IMG/VR virus record: IMGVR_UViG_3300010389_000132
Span: 1-23,486 of that record
Source of the DNA: a virus
Reading direction: 5' to 3' (one strand)
Length of the DNA stretch: 23,486 nt
Shown: positions 3,001-23,486 of the stretch, piece by piece
How positions within the stretch are numbered: the first letter of the stretch is position 1
Layout of the letters: the number at the start of each line of letters is the position of its first letter
Notes under the pieces: model-generated
What the model was told of the DNA's origin: nothing
Databases searched by the model: none
Seen by the model: the letters and a program-made list of their open reading frames with translations, nothing else
Translations under genes and position numbers: made by a program

Positions 3001-6000
3001 TAGTGTTGCTTCTAGTACCATTGAAAATGTAGAAATTTATCCAGAAAAGCAAAAGGGTCTTTATAGAATATACAGCGATTCTCCAAATAAATTTAATAAT
3101 TCGGACATAGTAAGAATTTCTGGATTATCCACAACTGCAACCAAAATTGAAGGTTCTTATTCTGTAGGAATTTCTTCAAATAGACTCTCTATTGCTGGAG
3201 TTGGAACTACTGGTGTAGCAATTGGTACTGATGGTGTTACTGGATTGGTTACATATTTTAGCGTTGTTGGCGATATTTCTCAGACTAGAGAAAATGATAT
3301 CTTCTCTATTGGAACTGAAAGAATTAAAGTTCTAAACGTAGACTACTCGTCTTCAAGGCTTAGAGTCTTAAGATCTGTTGATGGAACTGTTTCAACTTCA
3401 CATACTATCGGAAAATATCTTTATGAAGATCCTAGAAAATTATTTGTAAATTCTGGATATGGAACAGATTATAGTTTTAGAGTAAACAAACAGATCTACT
3501 TCAATCCAGTTGAGTCTGTTGGAGTTGGAACTACTTCTGGAGTTGGTATTGGAACCACAATATATTTCTCAAATCCAGGCACAGGAATAACACAAAAATT
3601 TATTCCAACAAAATCAATCTATATTAAAAATCACAATCTTAAGACTGGAGATTTATTAACATATTCTTTCGGATTTGGTGGAACTGGATTATATGTTCAA
3701 GATGAAACCAATGTTGGTATTGGCACAACTCTTACTGACGGTCAAAATTTATTTGTTGCCAAAATTGATGACGATTTAATTGGAATTGCAACGGTAAGAG
3801 TTGGACTGGGGACAACTGGAACGTTCGTTGGAATCGCATCCACCCACAGAAACTCATCAACTCTTTATATAAGAGGAGTCGGAATTGGAGATACTCATAG
3901 CTTTAGAACTAATCATACAGTTATAACTGGTAGATTGGATAAAGACACTGTTACTGTGTCTACTGCATCTACTCATGGATTAAAATCTGGAGATAAAATT
4001 TCTTTATCAGTAAATCCAAAATCTAGCAAAACCATAACTGTAAAATATGATGATTATAACAAGAAAATTTTGATCAATCCATTAGGATTCTCTTCTACTG
4101 GAATCAATACGTCTACAGGTGCAATTACAATTTCTTCACACGGATTTAAGGGCGGAGAAAAAGTAGTTTACACTGCTACAGAAGTTTCTGATGGGTTAAC
4201 CAATAACAACATTTATTATGTGTCAATAGTGGATGATAATAGGATAAAATTATCAAATACCTATTTTGATGCGGTTAGAGAAATTCCAGTAACAGTTGGA
4301 ATTGCTAGCACTGGAGGTAGTGGTGGAGTTCTAAGTCCAATAAATCCACCAATAACTTTATATAAAAACTCTACTGTCACATTTGATCTTTCAGATTCTT
4401 CTCTTGGATATACTATTCTTGGATCAGATTATCCTGCTTTTGATTTAAATCTGTATAAAGACAAAAATTTGACACAAATTTGGAATAAGTCTGAAAGCAG
4501 TATTGTTTTTGAATATTCTAAGTTTGGTCAGGTAGGATCTCCTGGAGGAAGATCTGTCTTAACTGTAGATGAAAACATACCAGAAGAACTCTATTACAAT
4601 TTAGATCTAATATATGATGAAGAAGTACCTAGTGTAAAATCGGAGATAACCTTAGATACTGATGTAATCTCTGCAAATCAATTATCATTTGAAGAAAGTC
4701 TGTATAACGGAAACCATATTATTACTGTTGGGACTGCAAGTACTTTCACATACACTTTAAAGAAAAGACCAGAGAGCGTATCATATGCTTCCAGCACATC
4801 TGAAATTTTATATGATACCGATAGTGTAGGTACATATGGTCCTATTTCTAAAGTAGAAGTTATTAATCCTGGAAAAAATTATTATTCTTTACCAGGAATA
4901 ACAACCATAAGAACTCTTGCGGGATCTGGCGCAATTTTAGATGCGTCCAGTACTAGTATTGGTCGTTTAAAATCCGCATCTATATCCGATATTGGGTTTA
5001 ATTTGCCATCCGATATAACTTTAAATCCAACAGTTATTTTCCCACAAACAATCAAGATTGAAACTCTAGCTTCATTTGATTCTATTGGGATAACCTCTTT
5101 TGGTAGAGGATATTCTATTGCACCAAAATTAGTAGTAATTGATGCAAAAACTAGTGAAGTTATTGATGATGTAGATTTAAGAATGAGGCTTAATGATTCC
5201 AATGTTGAGATTCTTAAAAATACTAATGGAATCAGTAACATAACCCCAACTATAATTCCAACTAAATCTGATTCTGGAGTTGGAATTAGTACAATTGAAT
5301 ACTTCCCATCAACAAAGGACGTTATCGTTACTTTATCGGTGTCGTCTAGAGGTCTGTTTGATAATGGAGATAATAAGTTCCCATTTGCAGTTGGAGATAA
5401 AGTTTTAGTTGAAAATGTTAGTATTGGTATTGGGTCTACTGGTAAAGGATACAATTCTGATGGATATGGTTATAATTTATTTGAGTTGACTGAAGTACAA
5501 CCAAATATTGGAGGAATTGGATCTGTCACTTTCAATATGACTGGTCTTTTTGATGAAGATGAGTTCCCAGGACAGTTTGATCACATTAATTCTTCCGGAA
5601 GAATAACTCCACAAAAACATTTCCCGATTTTTGATGCGAAACTAAAATTAAATAATTATTTTATTGGGGAAACAATTGTTTCAGATTCGGCAACTGGAAA
5701 ACTTGAGGATTGGAATCCAGTATTGGGAATTCTAAGAGTTTCTTCTGATGAAAATTTTGCTGTCGGAGAAAGTATTGTTGGACAAGCTTCTAATGTTAAG
5801 GGGAATATAGAGTCGGTAAATCTTTACCAATCTTATGCTAACTTTGGAGCGTCATCCAAAGTTATTAGGGGATGGCAAAATGACTCTGGAGAATTGAATT
5901 TTAACCTGCAGAGAATTCAGGATAACTTCTATTATCAAAAGTTCTCGTATTCGTTGAAAACTGACATTCCATATGATACTTGGAATGACGTAGTTTCTTC

Positions 6001-10714: not shown

Positions 10715-10741
10715 ATTATGCTTTTAAATCACTAATAAATA
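10710..10741 (+). promoter_or_regulatory. Candidate late promoter region upstream of gp8
   Basis: The 45-nt gap between the giant gene and gp8 is extremely AT-rich. It contains AATAAATA at 10734-10741, which matches the T4 late consensus TATAAATA at 7 of 8 positions and ends 18 nt before the gp8 ATG. A CCTAAAT at 10710-10716 overlaps the upstream stop codon, like the elements before gp13 and gp15. No clear Shine-Dalgarno sequence precedes the gp8 start. Promoter activity is inferred from sequence and position only. Confidence 0.45.
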
Positions 10742-10759: not shown

Positions 10760-12313
10760 ATGGCTGCCATTATAACTGACCAAGTTAGAATATTAAATGC
10801 GAAAAATTTTGTTGCTGGAGTAACCAGCACAAACAATTCATATTATTCTTTCGTTGGACTATCAAACCCCACCGACTACCAATCGGACTGGGACAATGAT
10901 CCCCCATCACCTAAAGATAGTTTTGATCAGGAAAACGATTATTGGGATACAATGATCGCTTTGAAAAAAATCAATTCAAGTGACGTAAAACAAGTAATTC
11001 CAAAAAGAGTTTGGTCTTCTGGAACTTCATATGACATGTATCGTCATGATTATAGTAGATCCAATACGGCATCTGTTTCTGGATCAACCTCTCTTTACCT
11101 TGCAAATTATTTTGTATTGAATAGTGACTTTAGGGTCTATATTTGTCTGCAAAATGGAACAGATCCAGATAATCCATCTGGAAAACCATCTTTGGATGAA
11201 CCAACTTTTACGGACTTGGAACCCAGAACTGCAGGAAATAGTGGCGATGGATATATTTGGAAGTACTTATATACTATCAAACCAAGTGACGTAGTTAAGT
11301 TTGAGTCAACTCAGTATATGCCAGTTCCACCAAACTGGGAAACTTCAACTGAAACGGCTGCAGTTAGAGATAATGCTGTTGATGGTGGAATTAAAGTCGT
11401 AACCATTACAAATAGGGGAGTTGGTCTTGGTACTGCCAACACTGCATACTCGGGTGTTCCAATTAAAGGTGATGGAAGTGGAGCACAGTGTACAATTGTT
11501 ATTGACGGAAATCAACAAGTAAGTTCTGTTACTGTTTCAAATCAAGGGTCTGGTTATACTTTTGGTACTGTTGATTTGGTCGGTGGAGGTGTTCCAACTG
11601 GAACTACTAGACCTACCTTTGATGTGATTATTCCACCTCAAGGTGGACATGGTGCAGACATTTACAGAGAACTTGGTGCTTATAATGTATTAATGTACTC
11701 TAGAATTGAAAATGACAATGAAAACCCAGACTTTATTACCGGCAACCAAATATCTAGAATTGGTGTTGTTGAGAATCCAGAGCAATTTGGATCATCAATT
11801 TTACTAAATTCTGATAAAGCCGCAGCAACATACGCACTTAAGTTAGTTGGAACTGGTTATAGTACCGCTACTTTTACAGCAGACTCATATTTTACTCAAA
11901 CAGTTGCAACTGGAACAACTGCAGTTGGAAGAGTCGTAAGTTATGATCAAAACACAGGAGTTTTAAAGTACTGGCAAGATAGAAGTCTTGCTGGATTCAA
12001 TACAGTTGGAACAGCACAAACTCAACCAACATATGGATTCACTTTGACAAGGTTTACTTCTACCCCCAGTTCTGGCGGAAGTTTAACGATTGTTCCTTCA
12101 ACTGGAACAAATTTGGGTATTGATTCCACTTTCTCAGGTATATCCACCGTAATAAATAATAGAACATACTATCTTGGTCAGAATTTTACGAGTGGTATTG
12201 CCAATCCTGAGGTCAAAAAACACTCTGGTAATATTATTTACGTTGATAACAGACCTTCTATAACCAGATCGTCAAACCAAAAGGAAGACATAAAAGTTAT
12301 TTTGCAGTTCTAA
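10760..12313 (+). CDS. 8: Baseplate wedge protein gp8
   Basis: This is a structural subunit of the hexagonal baseplate wedge, homologous to T4 gp8. Landmarks shared with T4 gp8 are: the N-terminal strand (ITDQVRILNAKNFV) leading into an F/Y-rich segment; VIPKRVW at about residues 79-85 (T4 VIPRRDW); GDGYIWKYLYTI at about 162 (T4 GDGYVWEYLFEI); and the C-terminal IYVDNRPSITRSSNQKEDIKVILQF region, about residues 493-517 (T4 IYMENRPPI...QTEEINILFTF). At 517 residues it is much longer than T4 gp8 (334). The extra length is mostly a central part at about residues 210-300 holding two glycine-rich beta repeats (TNRGVGLG..., SNQGSGYTFG) and a further module at about 370-420 (TGTTAVGRVVSYDQNTGVLKYW). 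The start is the first ATG after the 45-nt leader and fits the family N-terminus. The DUF4815 gene follows 6 nt after the stop. Confidence 0.9.
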   Translation: MAAIITDQVRILNAKNFVAGVTSTNNSYYSFVGLSNPTDYQSDWDNDPPSPKDSFDQENDYWDTMIALKKINSSDVKQVIPKRVWSSGTSYDMYRHDYSRSNTASVSGSTSLYLANYFVLNSDFRVYICLQNGTDPDNPSGKPSLDEPTFTDLEPRTAGNSGDGYIWKYLYTIKPSDVVKFESTQYMPVPPNWETSTETAAVRDNAVDGGIKVVTITNRGVGLGTANTAYSGVPIKGDGSGAQCTIVIDGNQQVSSVTVSNQGSGYTFGTVDLVGGGVPTGTTRPTFDVIIPPQGGHGADIYRELGAYNVLMYSRIENDNENPDFITGNQISRIGVVENPEQFGSSILLNSDKAAATYALKLVGTGYSTATFTADSYFTQTVATGTTAVGRVVSYDQNTGVLKYWQDRSLAGFNTVGTAQTQPTYGFTLTRFTSTPSSGGSLTIVPSTGTNLGIDSTFSGISTVINNRTYYLGQNFTSGIANPEVKKHSGNIIYVDNRPSITRSSNQKEDIKVILQF

Positions 12314-20063: not shown

Positions 20064-20235
20064 CAAAATTGAACTTTCAAATCTATCAAAGAGTTTTGCA
20101 TATACGCAAATGGCATCCGAGATAGATAAATGTGATGACACAGAATCTTTGAAAAGGATTGCAAAATCATTCTGCAAACTTTTTTATAAACAGCAAGAAA
20201 CACTACGGGAAATAGGTATTCCAGATGGCAACTAA
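20053..20235 (+). CDS. Small helical protein of unknown function
   Basis: This is a 60-residue acidic/basic, mostly helical protein (SKSFAYTQMASEIDKCDD, ESLKRIAKSFCKLFYKQQET). It has two cysteines and no membrane segment or recognised catalytic motif. Its start is well supported by AAGGAG 7 nt upstream. It overlaps the upstream gene by 11 nt and the downstream gene by 11 nt, so the three small genes form one coupled translation unit. Such proteins appear conserved next to neck genes in T4-like cyanophages as I recall them, but no function is known to me. A virion-assembly role is only contextual. Confidence 0.72.
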   Translation: MDPDKIELSNLSKSFAYTQMASEIDKCDDTESLKRIAKSFCKLFYKQQETLREIGIPDGN

Positions 20236-20611
20236 AAACATTACTTTTGATCCCGATTCGGGAGTTCCATATGGTTTAAATTTAACGATGTATGGTGGAT
20301 CGGATTTTGTGGTTAACTTGAACGTAAAGACAACCTCAAGTGCCGCCTTTGATTTAACTGGATATAGTGGATCAGCAGCAATGTCTAAAAGTGTTGCTGT
20401 TGGAGCTACTCTTGGAATTACTTCAACATTTACCGTTGGATTTACCAGTGCGTATGATGGTAAAATGAAAATTTCTTTGGGTTCTACTGATACCAGAGCA
20501 ACTAAAGAAGGAAGATATGTATATGATATTTTAGTTTCTGCGGGGGGAACTTACTACACTCTTGCAAATGGAAACATATATGTTTACAATCCAGTTTCAT
20601 CCGCACCCTAA
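20225..20611 (+). CDS. Small beta-rich virion protein, possibly baseplate/fibre N-domain-like
   Basis: The 128-residue product lacks long helices and reads as alternating beta strands: GGSDFVVNLNVK, FDLTGYSGSAAMSKS, a FTVGFTS...GKMKISLGS stretch, then GRYVYDILVSAGGTYYTLANG and a final strand. The order 'linear term, L-T-G-Y, G-K-M-x-I-x-L, G-x-Y-x-Y-D-I, G-x-x-x-V/I' recalls the N-terminal domain of BppU-type baseplate proteins, a fold-level impression only. The start at 20225 overlaps the previous gene by 11 nt; an AGG lies 8 nt upstream. Its TAA stop (20609-20611) lies within the CCCTAAATA element upstream of gp13. It is probably a virion component near the neck or baseplate; the function is unknown. 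Confidence 0.75.
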   Translation: MATKNITFDPDSGVPYGLNLTMYGGSDFVVNLNVKTTSSAAFDLTGYSGSAAMSKSVAVGATLGITSTFTVGFTSAYDGKMKISLGSTDTRATKEGRYVYDILVSAGGTYYTLANGNIYVYNPVSSAP

Positions 20612-20614
20612 ATA
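20606..20614 (+). promoter_or_regulatory. Candidate late promoter for gp13 (CCCTAAATA)
   Basis: CCCTAAATA overlaps the stop codon of the 128-codon gene. CTAAATAC resembles the T4 late -10 element (TATAAATA). By T4 spacing, transcription would start near 20620, giving a leader of roughly 17 nt before gp13. The same 9-mer recurs at 22909-22917 before gp15. Activity is inferred. Confidence 0.5.
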
Positions 20615-20622
20615 CATTTAGG
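20607..20622 (+). repeat. Inverted repeat overlapping promoter and ribosome site of gp13
   Basis: CCTAAAT (20607-20613) and ATTTAGG (20616-20622) are perfect inverted copies separated by AC. In RNA they would form a 6-bp stem with a 4-nt loop. The 3' arm contains the AGG of the likely gp13 ribosome binding site. There is no downstream T-run, so it is not a typical intrinsic terminator. Confidence 0.6.
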
Positions 20623-20636
20623 AAACTTGTGAATAA

Positions 20637-21482
20637 ATGGCACAACCAGCAAGTAGAACAGATTTAATTAACTATTGTAAAAGGCAACTCGGCGCTCCTG
20701 TGCTTGAGATTAACGTTGCTGATGAGCAGGTAGATGATCTGGTTGATGATGCACTGCAATATTTTCATGAAAGGCATTTTGATGGGGTAACTCAAACCTA
20801 TCTGAAATATAAAATTACGCAAGCAGATATTGATAGAGGGAGATCAAGAGGAGGATCTGCGACCGCTGGAATTGTTACGACAACTGCTTCAGCAACAATT
20901 GACGGATCTTCAGTAACTTTCTCATTTGAAGAAAATAGCAATTATCTTCAAGTACCACCATCCGTAATCGGGGTCAGTAAGATATATCAGTTTGATGGTT
21001 CAAACACCATGACAAATAATATGTTTAGTGTGAAGTATCAGTTGTTCTTGAATGATATCTACTACTGGGGATCAACTGAACTGTTGACATATGCAATGAC
21101 TAAAACATATTTGGAAGATATTGACTTTTTACTTACAACAGAAAAACAAATAAGATTCAATCAAAGACAAGATAGATTATATCTTGATATTGATTGGGGA
21201 TCAGTTCAAGTGAATGATTATATTATTATTGATTGCTACAGATTACTTGACCCAAATGACTATTCTAGAGTTTGGAACGATTCTTTCTTAAAGAGATACT
21301 TAACTGCATTAATCAAAAGACAATGGGGACAAAATTTAATTAAGTTTCAGGGAGTAAAACTTCCTGGTGGAATTGAATTAAATGGAAGACAGATTTATGA
21401 TGATGCTGAAAAAGAATTGGAAAATATCAGAGAAGTTATGTCAAATACATATGAACTTCCACCATTAGATATGATAGGATGA
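20637..21482 (+). CDS. 13: Neck protein gp13 (head-to-tail connector)
   Basis: This is a homologue of T4 gp13, which with gp14 forms the neck that closes the DNA-filled head and provides the tail attachment site. At 281 residues it is close to T4 gp13 (309). Family-like features are: the N-terminal LINYCKRQLGAPVLEINV segment; the acidic helix DEQVDDLVDDALQYFHERHF at about residues 28-47; the central FSVKYQLFLNDIYYWG and LDIDWG strands; and the C-terminal helical block LTALIKRQWGQNLIKFQG followed by LPGG...QIYDDAEKELENI. A short insertion with Thr/Ser/Ala-rich strands (about residues 70-100) interrupts the N-terminal part. It starts 25 nt after the upstream stop, behind a putative promoter and hairpin, with AGGA 13-14 nt upstream. 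gp14 follows after 4 nt. Confidence 0.93.
   Translation: MAQPASRTDLINYCKRQLGAPVLEINVADEQVDDLVDDALQYFHERHFDGVTQTYLKYKITQADIDRGRSRGGSATAGIVTTTASATIDGSSVTFSFEENSNYLQVPPSVIGVSKIYQFDGSNTMTNNMFSVKYQLFLNDIYYWGSTELLTYAMTKTYLEDIDFLLTTEKQIRFNQRQDRLYLDIDWGSVQVNDYIIIDCYRLLDPNDYSRVWNDSFLKRYLTALIKRQWGQNLIKFQGVKLPGGIELNGRQIYDDAEKELENIREVMSNTYELPPLDMIG
21477..21480 (+). promoter_or_regulatory. Shine-Dalgarno for gp14
   Basis: AGGA sits 6 nt before the gp14 ATG, within the last codons of gp13. It supports the start at 21487 and coupled translation of the two neck proteins. Confidence 0.6.
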
Positions 21483-21486
21483 TATC

Positions 21487-22914
21487 ATGCTAAATCCATT
21501 TTTTACTCAAGGAACTAAGGGGGAACAGAACTTAGTTCAAGATTTAATTAATGAGCAATTAAGGATGTATGGGGTAGATATCTTCTATCTACCAAGAAAA
21601 TATTTGACAGAAAATACTATTATTAGGGAAGTTGTTCAATCTAAATTTGACATGGCACTTCCACTTGAAGCATATGTCAATAATTTTGATCAATATGAAG
21701 GAGCAGGGAACCTTCTATCAAAATTCGGAATTGAATCAAAAGAAGAAATAAGACTTACAATATCAAGAGAGAGATTTGAAAATTATATATCACCTTTAAT
21801 TGAAGATCAAGCAAATATTAAATTATCAACGAGACCTAAAAGTGGAGATTTGGTTTGGTTTCCTCTTGACGATAGAATATATGAAATAAAAGAAGTTGAA
21901 CGCGCTAAACCATATTATCAACTACAAAGTCTTTATGTTTATGAACTTTATTGTGAACTCTTTAGACTTGAAGATGAGATTATTGCAACTGGAATTGGTG
22001 AAATTGATGACAACTTAGTAGGAAATCAATCTGACGGATTAACCGATGATGGAATATCTACTATCTTGGGAATAACTCAAACACTAACACTTATTGGTGC
22101 AGGTGCTACTGCTACTGCTACCGCAAGTGTCGTGGATGGTGGAATTAGAACAATCACCATAACAAATAGAGGTGGTGGATATAGTAGCATTCCTACAATC
22201 GGTATTTCTTCCGCTCCAGCTGGAGGAGTTACTGGGGTAGCAACTGCAAGAATGATTGGTGGAATTCAATTCTGCAATTTAAACGTCAATCCAAAATTAC
22301 AATCAGTCCAACATGTAGATATTGTAAATGCTGGTTCTGGGTATACAACAGCACCACTAATAACATTTACCGGTGGAGGAGGTGGTAGTGGAGCAGCTGC
22401 TACTGCGTCCATTGGAGACGGAGTGGTCGGAATTATTACAGTTACTTCTGGTGGATCTGGTTACACTACATCACCAACCATTACGTTTACAGGTATTTCA
22501 TCTGTTTCTGCCGCTGCTACAGCAGTTATCAATTCTGCTGGAACTATCACAGCAATCAATATTACAAACTCAGGTTTAGGATATACAGAATCTCCATTAG
22601 TAACAATTTCAGATCCTAATTTTGGATCAACCGGAGATTTTGTATTCAATGAAACTGTCACTGGTTCATCTAGCGGAACAACAGCAAAAGTAAGAACCTG
22701 GAATTCAATTACAAATGTTCTTGAAGTATCTACTATTGCCGGAACATTTGCCGTTGGAGAAAGTATAGTTGGTTCAACTTCAGGTGCTTCTCATACACTC
22801 TTAAATGTTGATACAAATCCAACGGACGACGGATTTGCAGATAACTTCAATATTGAAACTGAAGCAGATGCCATCTTAGATTTTACAGAACAAAACCCAT
22901 TCGGTATTCCCTAA
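21487..22914 (+). CDS. 14: Neck protein gp14 with repeat-rich insertion
   Basis: This is a homologue of T4 gp14, partner of gp13 in the neck. Residues about 1-180 carry the family core: MLNPFF, a DLINEQLRMYGVDIFYLPRKY stretch (T4 has AESIQMRGVECYYVPREY), YVNNFDQYEGAGNLLSKFGI (T4 YLNSFEGYEGQKSFFSNFGM), and GDLVWFPLDDRIYEIKEVE followed by PYYQL. The C-terminus (FADNFNIETEADAILDF, then NPFG) also looks native: T4 ends with a comparable acidic tail with SPF. Between them, at about residues 196-450, lies an insertion of four GxGY/P beta repeats and a GE-type module. This makes the protein 475 residues against 256 in T4. It lies 4 nt after gp13, with a good ribosome site. Its stop codon overlaps the CCCTAAATA element before gp15. 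Confidence 0.92.
   Translation: MLNPFFTQGTKGEQNLVQDLINEQLRMYGVDIFYLPRKYLTENTIIREVVQSKFDMALPLEAYVNNFDQYEGAGNLLSKFGIESKEEIRLTISRERFENYISPLIEDQANIKLSTRPKSGDLVWFPLDDRIYEIKEVERAKPYYQLQSLYVYELYCELFRLEDEIIATGIGEIDDNLVGNQSDGLTDDGISTILGITQTLTLIGAGATATATASVVDGGIRTITITNRGGGYSSIPTIGISSAPAGGVTGVATARMIGGIQFCNLNVNPKLQSVQHVDIVNAGSGYTTAPLITFTGGGGGSGAAATASIGDGVVGIITVTSGGSGYTTSPTITFTGISSVSAAATAVINSAGTITAINITNSGLGYTESPLVTISDPNFGSTGDFVFNETVTGSSSGTTAKVRTWNSITNVLEVSTIAGTFAVGESIVGSTSGASHTLLNVDTNPTDDGFADNFNIETEADAILDFTEQNPFGIP
22072..22830 (+). repeat. Glycine-rich beta repeat insertion in gp14
   Basis: Four successive units follow the pattern hydrophobic strand, G-x-G-Y, P, hydrophobic strand: TNRGGGYSSIPTIGIS, VNAGSGYTTAPLITFTG, TSGGSGYTTSPTITFTG and TNSGLGYTESPLVTISD. 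They are followed by two GE/SGA half-units (FNETVTGSSSGTTAKV, VGESIVGSTSGASHTLL). The DNA at about 22371-22405 is a GGT/GGA/GCT-rich low-complexity tract. Confidence 0.85.
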
Positions 22915-22917
22915 ATA
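22909..22917 (+). promoter_or_regulatory. Candidate late promoter for gp15 (CCCTAAATA)
   Basis: The 9-mer is identical to that at 20606-20614, and it again embeds the stop codon of the upstream gene (TAA at 22912-22914). It lies 36 nt before the gp15 ATG. With T4-like spacing, transcription would begin near 22923. Activity is inferred from recurrence and position. Confidence 0.5.
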
Positions 22918-22946
22918 GAAATACCTTACAAGTAACATATTTTAGG
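22910..22946 (+). repeat. Inverted repeat pairing the CCTAAA element with the gp15 ribosome site
   Basis: CCTAAA (22910-22915) and TTTAGG (22941-22946) are exact inverted copies separated by 25 nt. The 3' arm contains the AGG of the gp15 Shine-Dalgarno (AGGA, 22944-22947, 6 nt before the ATG). The stem is short and the loop long, so stability is uncertain. Confidence 0.4.
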
Positions 22947-22953
22947 ATTAAAA

Positions 22954-23486
22954 ATGTTTGAGTATTTTTACAACGAAATTTTGAGAAGAACCATTATATC
23001 TTTTGGTACTCTTTTTAATGACATTTCTATCAAAAAAACAGATTCTTCTGATAATGTTGTAAGCGTTGTAAAAGTTCCTTTGGCATATGGTCCAACTCAA
23101 AAATTCTTAGCAAGACTGGAACAGTCTCCAGACTTGAATAAACCCTTTGCAATTACTTTGCCAAGGATGTCGTTTGAATTTATTGGACTAACTTATGATC
23201 CATCCAGAAAGGTAACAACTACTCAGACTTTTACTGTTAAAGATTCTAGTGATGGAACTCAAACAAAAAAGTCCTACATGCCAGTTCCATACAATATGCA
23301 ATTTGAGTTATCAATCATGTCAAAATTGAATGATGATGCTCTTCAAATTGTAGAACAAATTCTTCCATATTTCCAACCAGCATATAATTTGACTGTAGAA
23401 TTGGTTGAAGCAATTAAAGAAAAAAGAGATATTCCCGTCGTTTTAGAAAATATTACGATGCAAGATGATTATGAAGGAGATTTTAC
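22954..23486 (+). CDS. 15: Proximal tail sheath stabiliser gp15, 3'-truncated by window edge
   Basis: This is a homologue of T4 gp15, the hexameric protein that caps the tail tube and contractile sheath and forms the joint to the neck. The first 177 codons are present, against 272 residues in T4; the frame is open to the right edge. The match is strong: MFEYFYN (T4 MFGYFYN), RR near residues 11-12, SFGTLFNDISIKK (T4 LMGDLFSNIQIKR), VPLAYGPTQKFLARL (T4 VPITYASKEHFMMKL), LPRMSFEFIGLTYD, MPVPYNMQFELSIMSKLNDD, and QIVEQILPYFQP, identical in both. The start has AGGA 6 nt upstream. The gene lies 39 nt after gp14, behind the putative late promoter, keeping the T4 order 13-14-15. Confidence 0.93.
   Translation, partial: MFEYFYNEILRRTIISFGTLFNDISIKKTDSSDNVVSVVKVPLAYGPTQKFLARLEQSPDLNKPFAITLPRMSFEFIGLTYDPSRKVTTTQTFTVKDSSDGTQTKKSYMPVPYNMQFELSIMSKLNDDALQIVEQILPYFQPAYNLTVELVEAIKEKRDIPVVLENITMQDDYEGDF

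Follow-up and report, generated by a model that had tools for sequence, protein, structure and literature searches.

The site ahead of gp13 in this stretch of DNA is very probably a T4-type [A/C]TAAATA late promoter fused to the stop codon of the preceding gene, and the inverse repeat that accompanies it is most likely, for the most part, a by-product of this arrangement. The window, that is, the whole 23,486-nucleotide stretch that was analysed, covers part of the genome of a marine T4-like cyanophage (cyanomyovirus) and comes from a record that is itself a 24,426-base fragment. Its genes run from a baseplate wedge protein (start at 10760) through a very large structural protein and three small genes to gp13, gp14 (stop codon at 22912-22914) and gp15 (start at 22954), an order common to S-SM2, SynMITS9220M01 and Bellamy. 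The neck protein gp13 (head-tail adaptor Ad2) is encoded on the plus strand at 20637-21482, with its ATG at 20637, and shares 84% identity with its counterpart in the Synechococcus phage S-SM2. The gene directly upstream, on the same strand at 20225-20611, had been labelled gp12 in a previous reading made from the sequence alone; this label is wrong, as the small 128-aa ORF matches phrog_1084 and 'L-shaped tail fiber protein assembly'.

Several elements are packed into the gap between these two genes, where positions 20606-20622 read CCCTAAATACATTTAGG. The sequence-only reading was correct in its description of the site: CCCTAAATA at 20606-20614 overlaps the TAA (20609-20611) that ends the 128-aa ORF, and CCTAAAT (20607-20613) is followed after 2 nt by its exact inverse ATTTAGG (20616-20622). 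The wide gap that it listed as a weak point is also there, with 14 nt separating the AGG (20620-20622) from the ATG. This AGG, found in 82 of 94 gp13 leaders, belongs to a weak Shine-Dalgarno-like AGGA (20620-20623, plus strand), with which the late RNA is predicted to begin and which is separated from the ATG by 13 nt. The putative promoter, CCTAAATA at 20607-20614 on the plus strand, stands at the position of the T4 consensus, -13 to -6 (PMC1524935). Published late promoter consensus sequences are TATAAATA in T4 (-13 to -6), NATAAATA in S-PM2 and CTAAATA in Aeh1 (PMC2984593, PMC1524935).

The placement of the motif is not what chance would give, since the window has just two copies of CTAAATA, each at a gene end directly ahead of a late gene, and the motif is conserved in relatives. 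The second copy is again part of CCTAAATA (22910-22917, plus strand), which overlaps the gp14 stop codon ahead of gp15. ATAAATA also has two copies, one of them a candidate late promoter at 10735-10741 (plus strand) ahead of the baseplate wedge gene, and both forms are rarer in the window than in shuffled sequences. When gp13 relatives were fetched with their upstream DNA, [A/C]TAAATA was found 25-31 nt before the gp13 ATG in 77 of 78, and it persists in relatives that have another upstream gene or one that stops sooner (L002, L009, L017). At position -12 of the gp13 promoter only A or C is present. The same preference was manifested in 1.58 Mb of related sequence, in which 337 distinct NTAAATA sites directly before ORFs carry A in 199, C in 115, T in 17 and G in 6 cases (A and C forms, 314/337), as compared with 16 A, 34 C, 329 T and 190 G on the opposite strand. 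This enrichment before ORFs on the coding strand argues that the A and C forms are both real signals. As judged from conservation together with strand and placement statistics, the late promoter that the earlier reading had placed over the upstream stop codon is strongly supported, and [A/C]TAAATA behaves as a late promoter in cyanophages. The literature yielded no mapped cyanophage transcript starts at gp13.

From T4 geometry, the +1 of the late gp13 RNA is predicted at 20620 (plus strand), the A of the AGG. A purine (A or G) occupies the predicted start in 87 of 94 gp13 leaders, although about three gp18-type leaders slipped into the gp13 sets behind this count, as well as behind the swap test and the full-stem search described below; the 24-row alignment excludes them. 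According to the proposed mechanism, the late-phase RNA polymerase with a gp55-type sigma factor would initiate at about A20620 and produce a leader of 17 nt beginning with AGGAAAC, giving gp13 and gp14 a separate late message. The likeness to T4-type late promoters resides in a short octamer that precedes late genes and occupies -13 to -6 relative to the predicted start, and in the presence of the gp55 sigma factor and the gp45 clamp in relatives; both genes are carried by S-SM2, the window's own record being a 24-kb fragment. The differences are that C or A occurs at -12 within one phage group, that the core also supplies the stop codon of the upstream gene, and that the start is a predicted one.

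The inverse repeat can be traced to constraints that overlap on the same few bases. The TAA of the promoter is the upstream stop codon in 72 of 99 gp13-type and 82 of 92 gp15-type promoters, and the codon before it is mostly proline (CCA 29 and CCC 20 for gp13, CCA 38 and CCC 43 for gp15). The C and A at -12 are thus mostly the third (wobble) base of the last proline codon of the upstream gene (CCC/CCA). Both bases are compatible with the promoter and both are silent in a proline codon, which explains the CC of the 5' arm as coding sequence. In the window the upstream gene ends with CCC TAA, which already makes up most of that arm. The CC would therefore come from the last proline codon, TAAATA from the stop codon and the promoter, and AGG from the RNA start and the weak ribosome site, leaving only the TTT ahead of the AGG free of other constraints. 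The inverse repeat is most likely a by-product of this overlap, and the stem would have no regulatory role.

The hairpin taken alone is ordinary, and chance suffices to account for it, unlike for the motif. As a 2-nt RNA loop cannot close, the structure reduces to CCUAAA-UACA-UUUAGG (20607-20622, plus strand), in which a 6-bp stem (20607-20612 with 20617-20622) closes a 4-nt loop at a folding energy of about -4.5 kcal/mol. The stem pairs the AGG and leaves the gp13 AUG free, and the fold around it has a z of -1.0 against shuffles. The window contains 78 perfect hairpins with loops of 3-8 nt and stems of 6 bp or more, versus 34-56 in shuffles; 36 of these 78 are at least as stable as the proposed one, and a fold as good or better is obtained for 18% of 30-nt stretches. 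Gp13 leaders as a set fold no better than shuffles, and a search of Rfam gave no match in the window or in five related loci.

Comparison among relatives points in the same direction. The 94 gp13 genes with a promoter were classed by their -12 base as A-type (59) or C-type (35), a state that switches about 20 times on the tree and at least 13 times on well-supported branches. Stem pairs were compared in 24 distinct leaders with equal spacing, and the full 6-bp stem is present only in the window and in L004. Every A at -12 in these leaders faces a G and breaks the stem; overall, 10 of them lack pair 2, 8 lack pair 5 and 22 lack pair 6, no pair is altered on both sides and none is compensated. 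The leaders L083 and L084 illustrate this loss, as a lone C to A change in the compared stretch weakens the stem from -4.0 to -0.2 kcal/mol and leaves the rest unchanged. Relatives have therefore repeatedly retained the promoter and lost the complementary arm, an outcome that the sequence-only reading had itself set against a switch, and the covarying arms for which it suggested looking are absent, with pair 2 broken in 10 of the 24 leaders and never compensated.

That reading had proposed a switch like those of the T4 genes e, soc and 49, in which the pairing of CCUAAA with UUUAGG in read-through RNA would conceal the ribosome site of gp13, whereas transcripts beginning near 20620 would lack the 5' arm and be translated. 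In T4, the transcripts of e, soc, 49 and I-TevI form a helix over the ribosome site and/or the AUG, described for e and I-TevI in early or middle read-through RNA (PMC3014915). The geometry at gp13 fits this model, with the promoter (20607-20614) in the 5' arm and its predicted start point within the 3' arm that carries the ribosome site, just as the T4 late promoters sit within the 5' arm. The window's stem is weak and short, however, when compared with the folded T4 leaders of e (-14.9 kcal/mol, z -4.2) and 49 (-17.9 kcal/mol, z -3.6), whose long stems reach the start codon, and it also differs from the T4 cases in its free AUG and in having neither conservation, compensation nor an upstream early gene. 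Baseplate and virion genes are late genes in T4-like phages. The small upstream genes invoked as the source of early RNA stand in a block of baseplate and virion genes, judged late by homology, which makes early read-through unlikely. Moreover, ribosomes on any read-through RNA would be expected to mask the 5' arm, because this arm holds the stop codon of the translated upstream gene. Some comparative data speak in favor of the switch: folding predicts a stem at least as stable as -2.5 kcal/mol for 25 of 94 relatives, almost all of them C-type, and TTAGG pooled over gp13 leaders goes with the C-type (20/35 versus 8/59). Nevertheless, over 13 independent tree pairs TTAGG varies with class in the same way in 3.0, in the opposite way in 0.5 and shows no difference in 9.4, which is not significant (median p 0.375). 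The label 'stem' does follow class on independent pairs (median p 0.03), an association true by construction, since a C at -12 is one half of a pair. Given the weakness of the stem, its full form in only 2 of 24 leaders and the uncompensated breaks, a T4-like switch on gp13 is quite unlikely.

A milder version would confine the effect to the C-type lineage, where a CCTAA/TTAGG stem of 5-6 bp would slightly lower gp13 translation from read-through RNA while the bulk of gp13 would come from the separate late message. The swap test leaves a residual TTAGG excess in C-type versus A-type leaders of the AGGAAA lineage, which gives room for a small lineage-specific role of the stem, and we regard this version as improbable too; if true, evolution would toggle this control through the C/A wobble at the upstream proline codon. 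The exactness of the repeat in the window could also suggest a palindromic site at which a protein binds DNA or RNA or at which RNA is processed, but the restriction of the full repeat to the window and L004 among the 24 comparable leaders makes such a site very improbable. At the other extreme, TAAATA could be a stop codon followed by chance bases, with gp13 expressed by read-through alone. The motif is indeed absent before gp13 in the cyanophages P-SSM2, P-HM2 and S-CAM3, but its retention in nearly all the relatives fetched, even behind a different or shorter upstream gene, together with the restriction of -12 to A or C and the strong strand bias, renders this explanation hardly credible. 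The promoter fused to the stop codon, with the repeat as its by-product, is the reading retained here.

Other T4 leaders offer partial parallels. The split ribosome sites of T4 genes 25 and 38 share with gp13 a longer-than-usual gap between Shine-Dalgarno and AUG (PMC3014915); here, in contrast, the gap is just 13-14 nt and no stable stem is predicted between AGG and AUG. T4 gene 13 itself is preceded by a GC-rich inverted repeat (GGGGCC..GGCCCC), which lies upstream of the ribosome site in the gap to wac (L158, 3595-3620), and differs from these cyanophages in having no late-promoter octamer directly upstream.

Hairpins were also noted in other late leaders. The gp15 leader of the window (22910-22953) repeats the gp13 pattern, with CCTAAATA over the gp14 stop codon and, ahead of the ATG, a TTTAGG able to pair with the CCTAAA at 22910. 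This pairing was taken as chance because few other leaders carry TTAGG (7/80 C-type, 3/140 A-type) and because it is not kept in relatives. A stem of varying sequence picked out by eye in gp15 late leaders (AATATCTT/AAGATATT and others) was likewise rejected, as the folding of 78 leaders was no better than that of shuffled sequences (mean z 0.24). The window's own record contains a strictly conserved hairpin, GGGAGAGAAATCCC, at 24390-24426 (G000:C1; L274, 491-527), just beyond the end of the window. This hairpin lies around +1 to +4 on the late RNA predicted for the gene that follows gp16, whose proteins begin MS..DLPSI.., always 4-9 nt past [AC]TAAATA, and is mostly followed by [GA]AAGTA. When the gene was located through its protein start, the hairpin was found in 27 of 27 leaders with a late promoter; it occurs in 101 distinct contexts in relatives, before one gene family (for example in L067 near 3886-3936 and in L155 at 31431), a count biased by the fact that many were fetched by the motif itself. 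Rfam gave no match for it in the loci tested, and it may stabilise the 5' end of the mRNA or bind a protein. Strong hairpins directly past a late promoter were also observed at L136 18853 (GGGGGGCGATAACCCCCC) and from L121 19927 onward (GGGGAAGAATGACTTCCCC), immediately ahead of the ATG start codons of small ORFs whose products begin with MDE.

For marine cyanophages, these results support CTAAATA as a late promoter form beside the published NATAAATA. They also indicate that a stop codon, a promoter core and a proline wobble position share bases, and that such an overlap yields an inverse repeat mimicking a T4 translation switch, a caution to be kept in mind when raw sequence is read.
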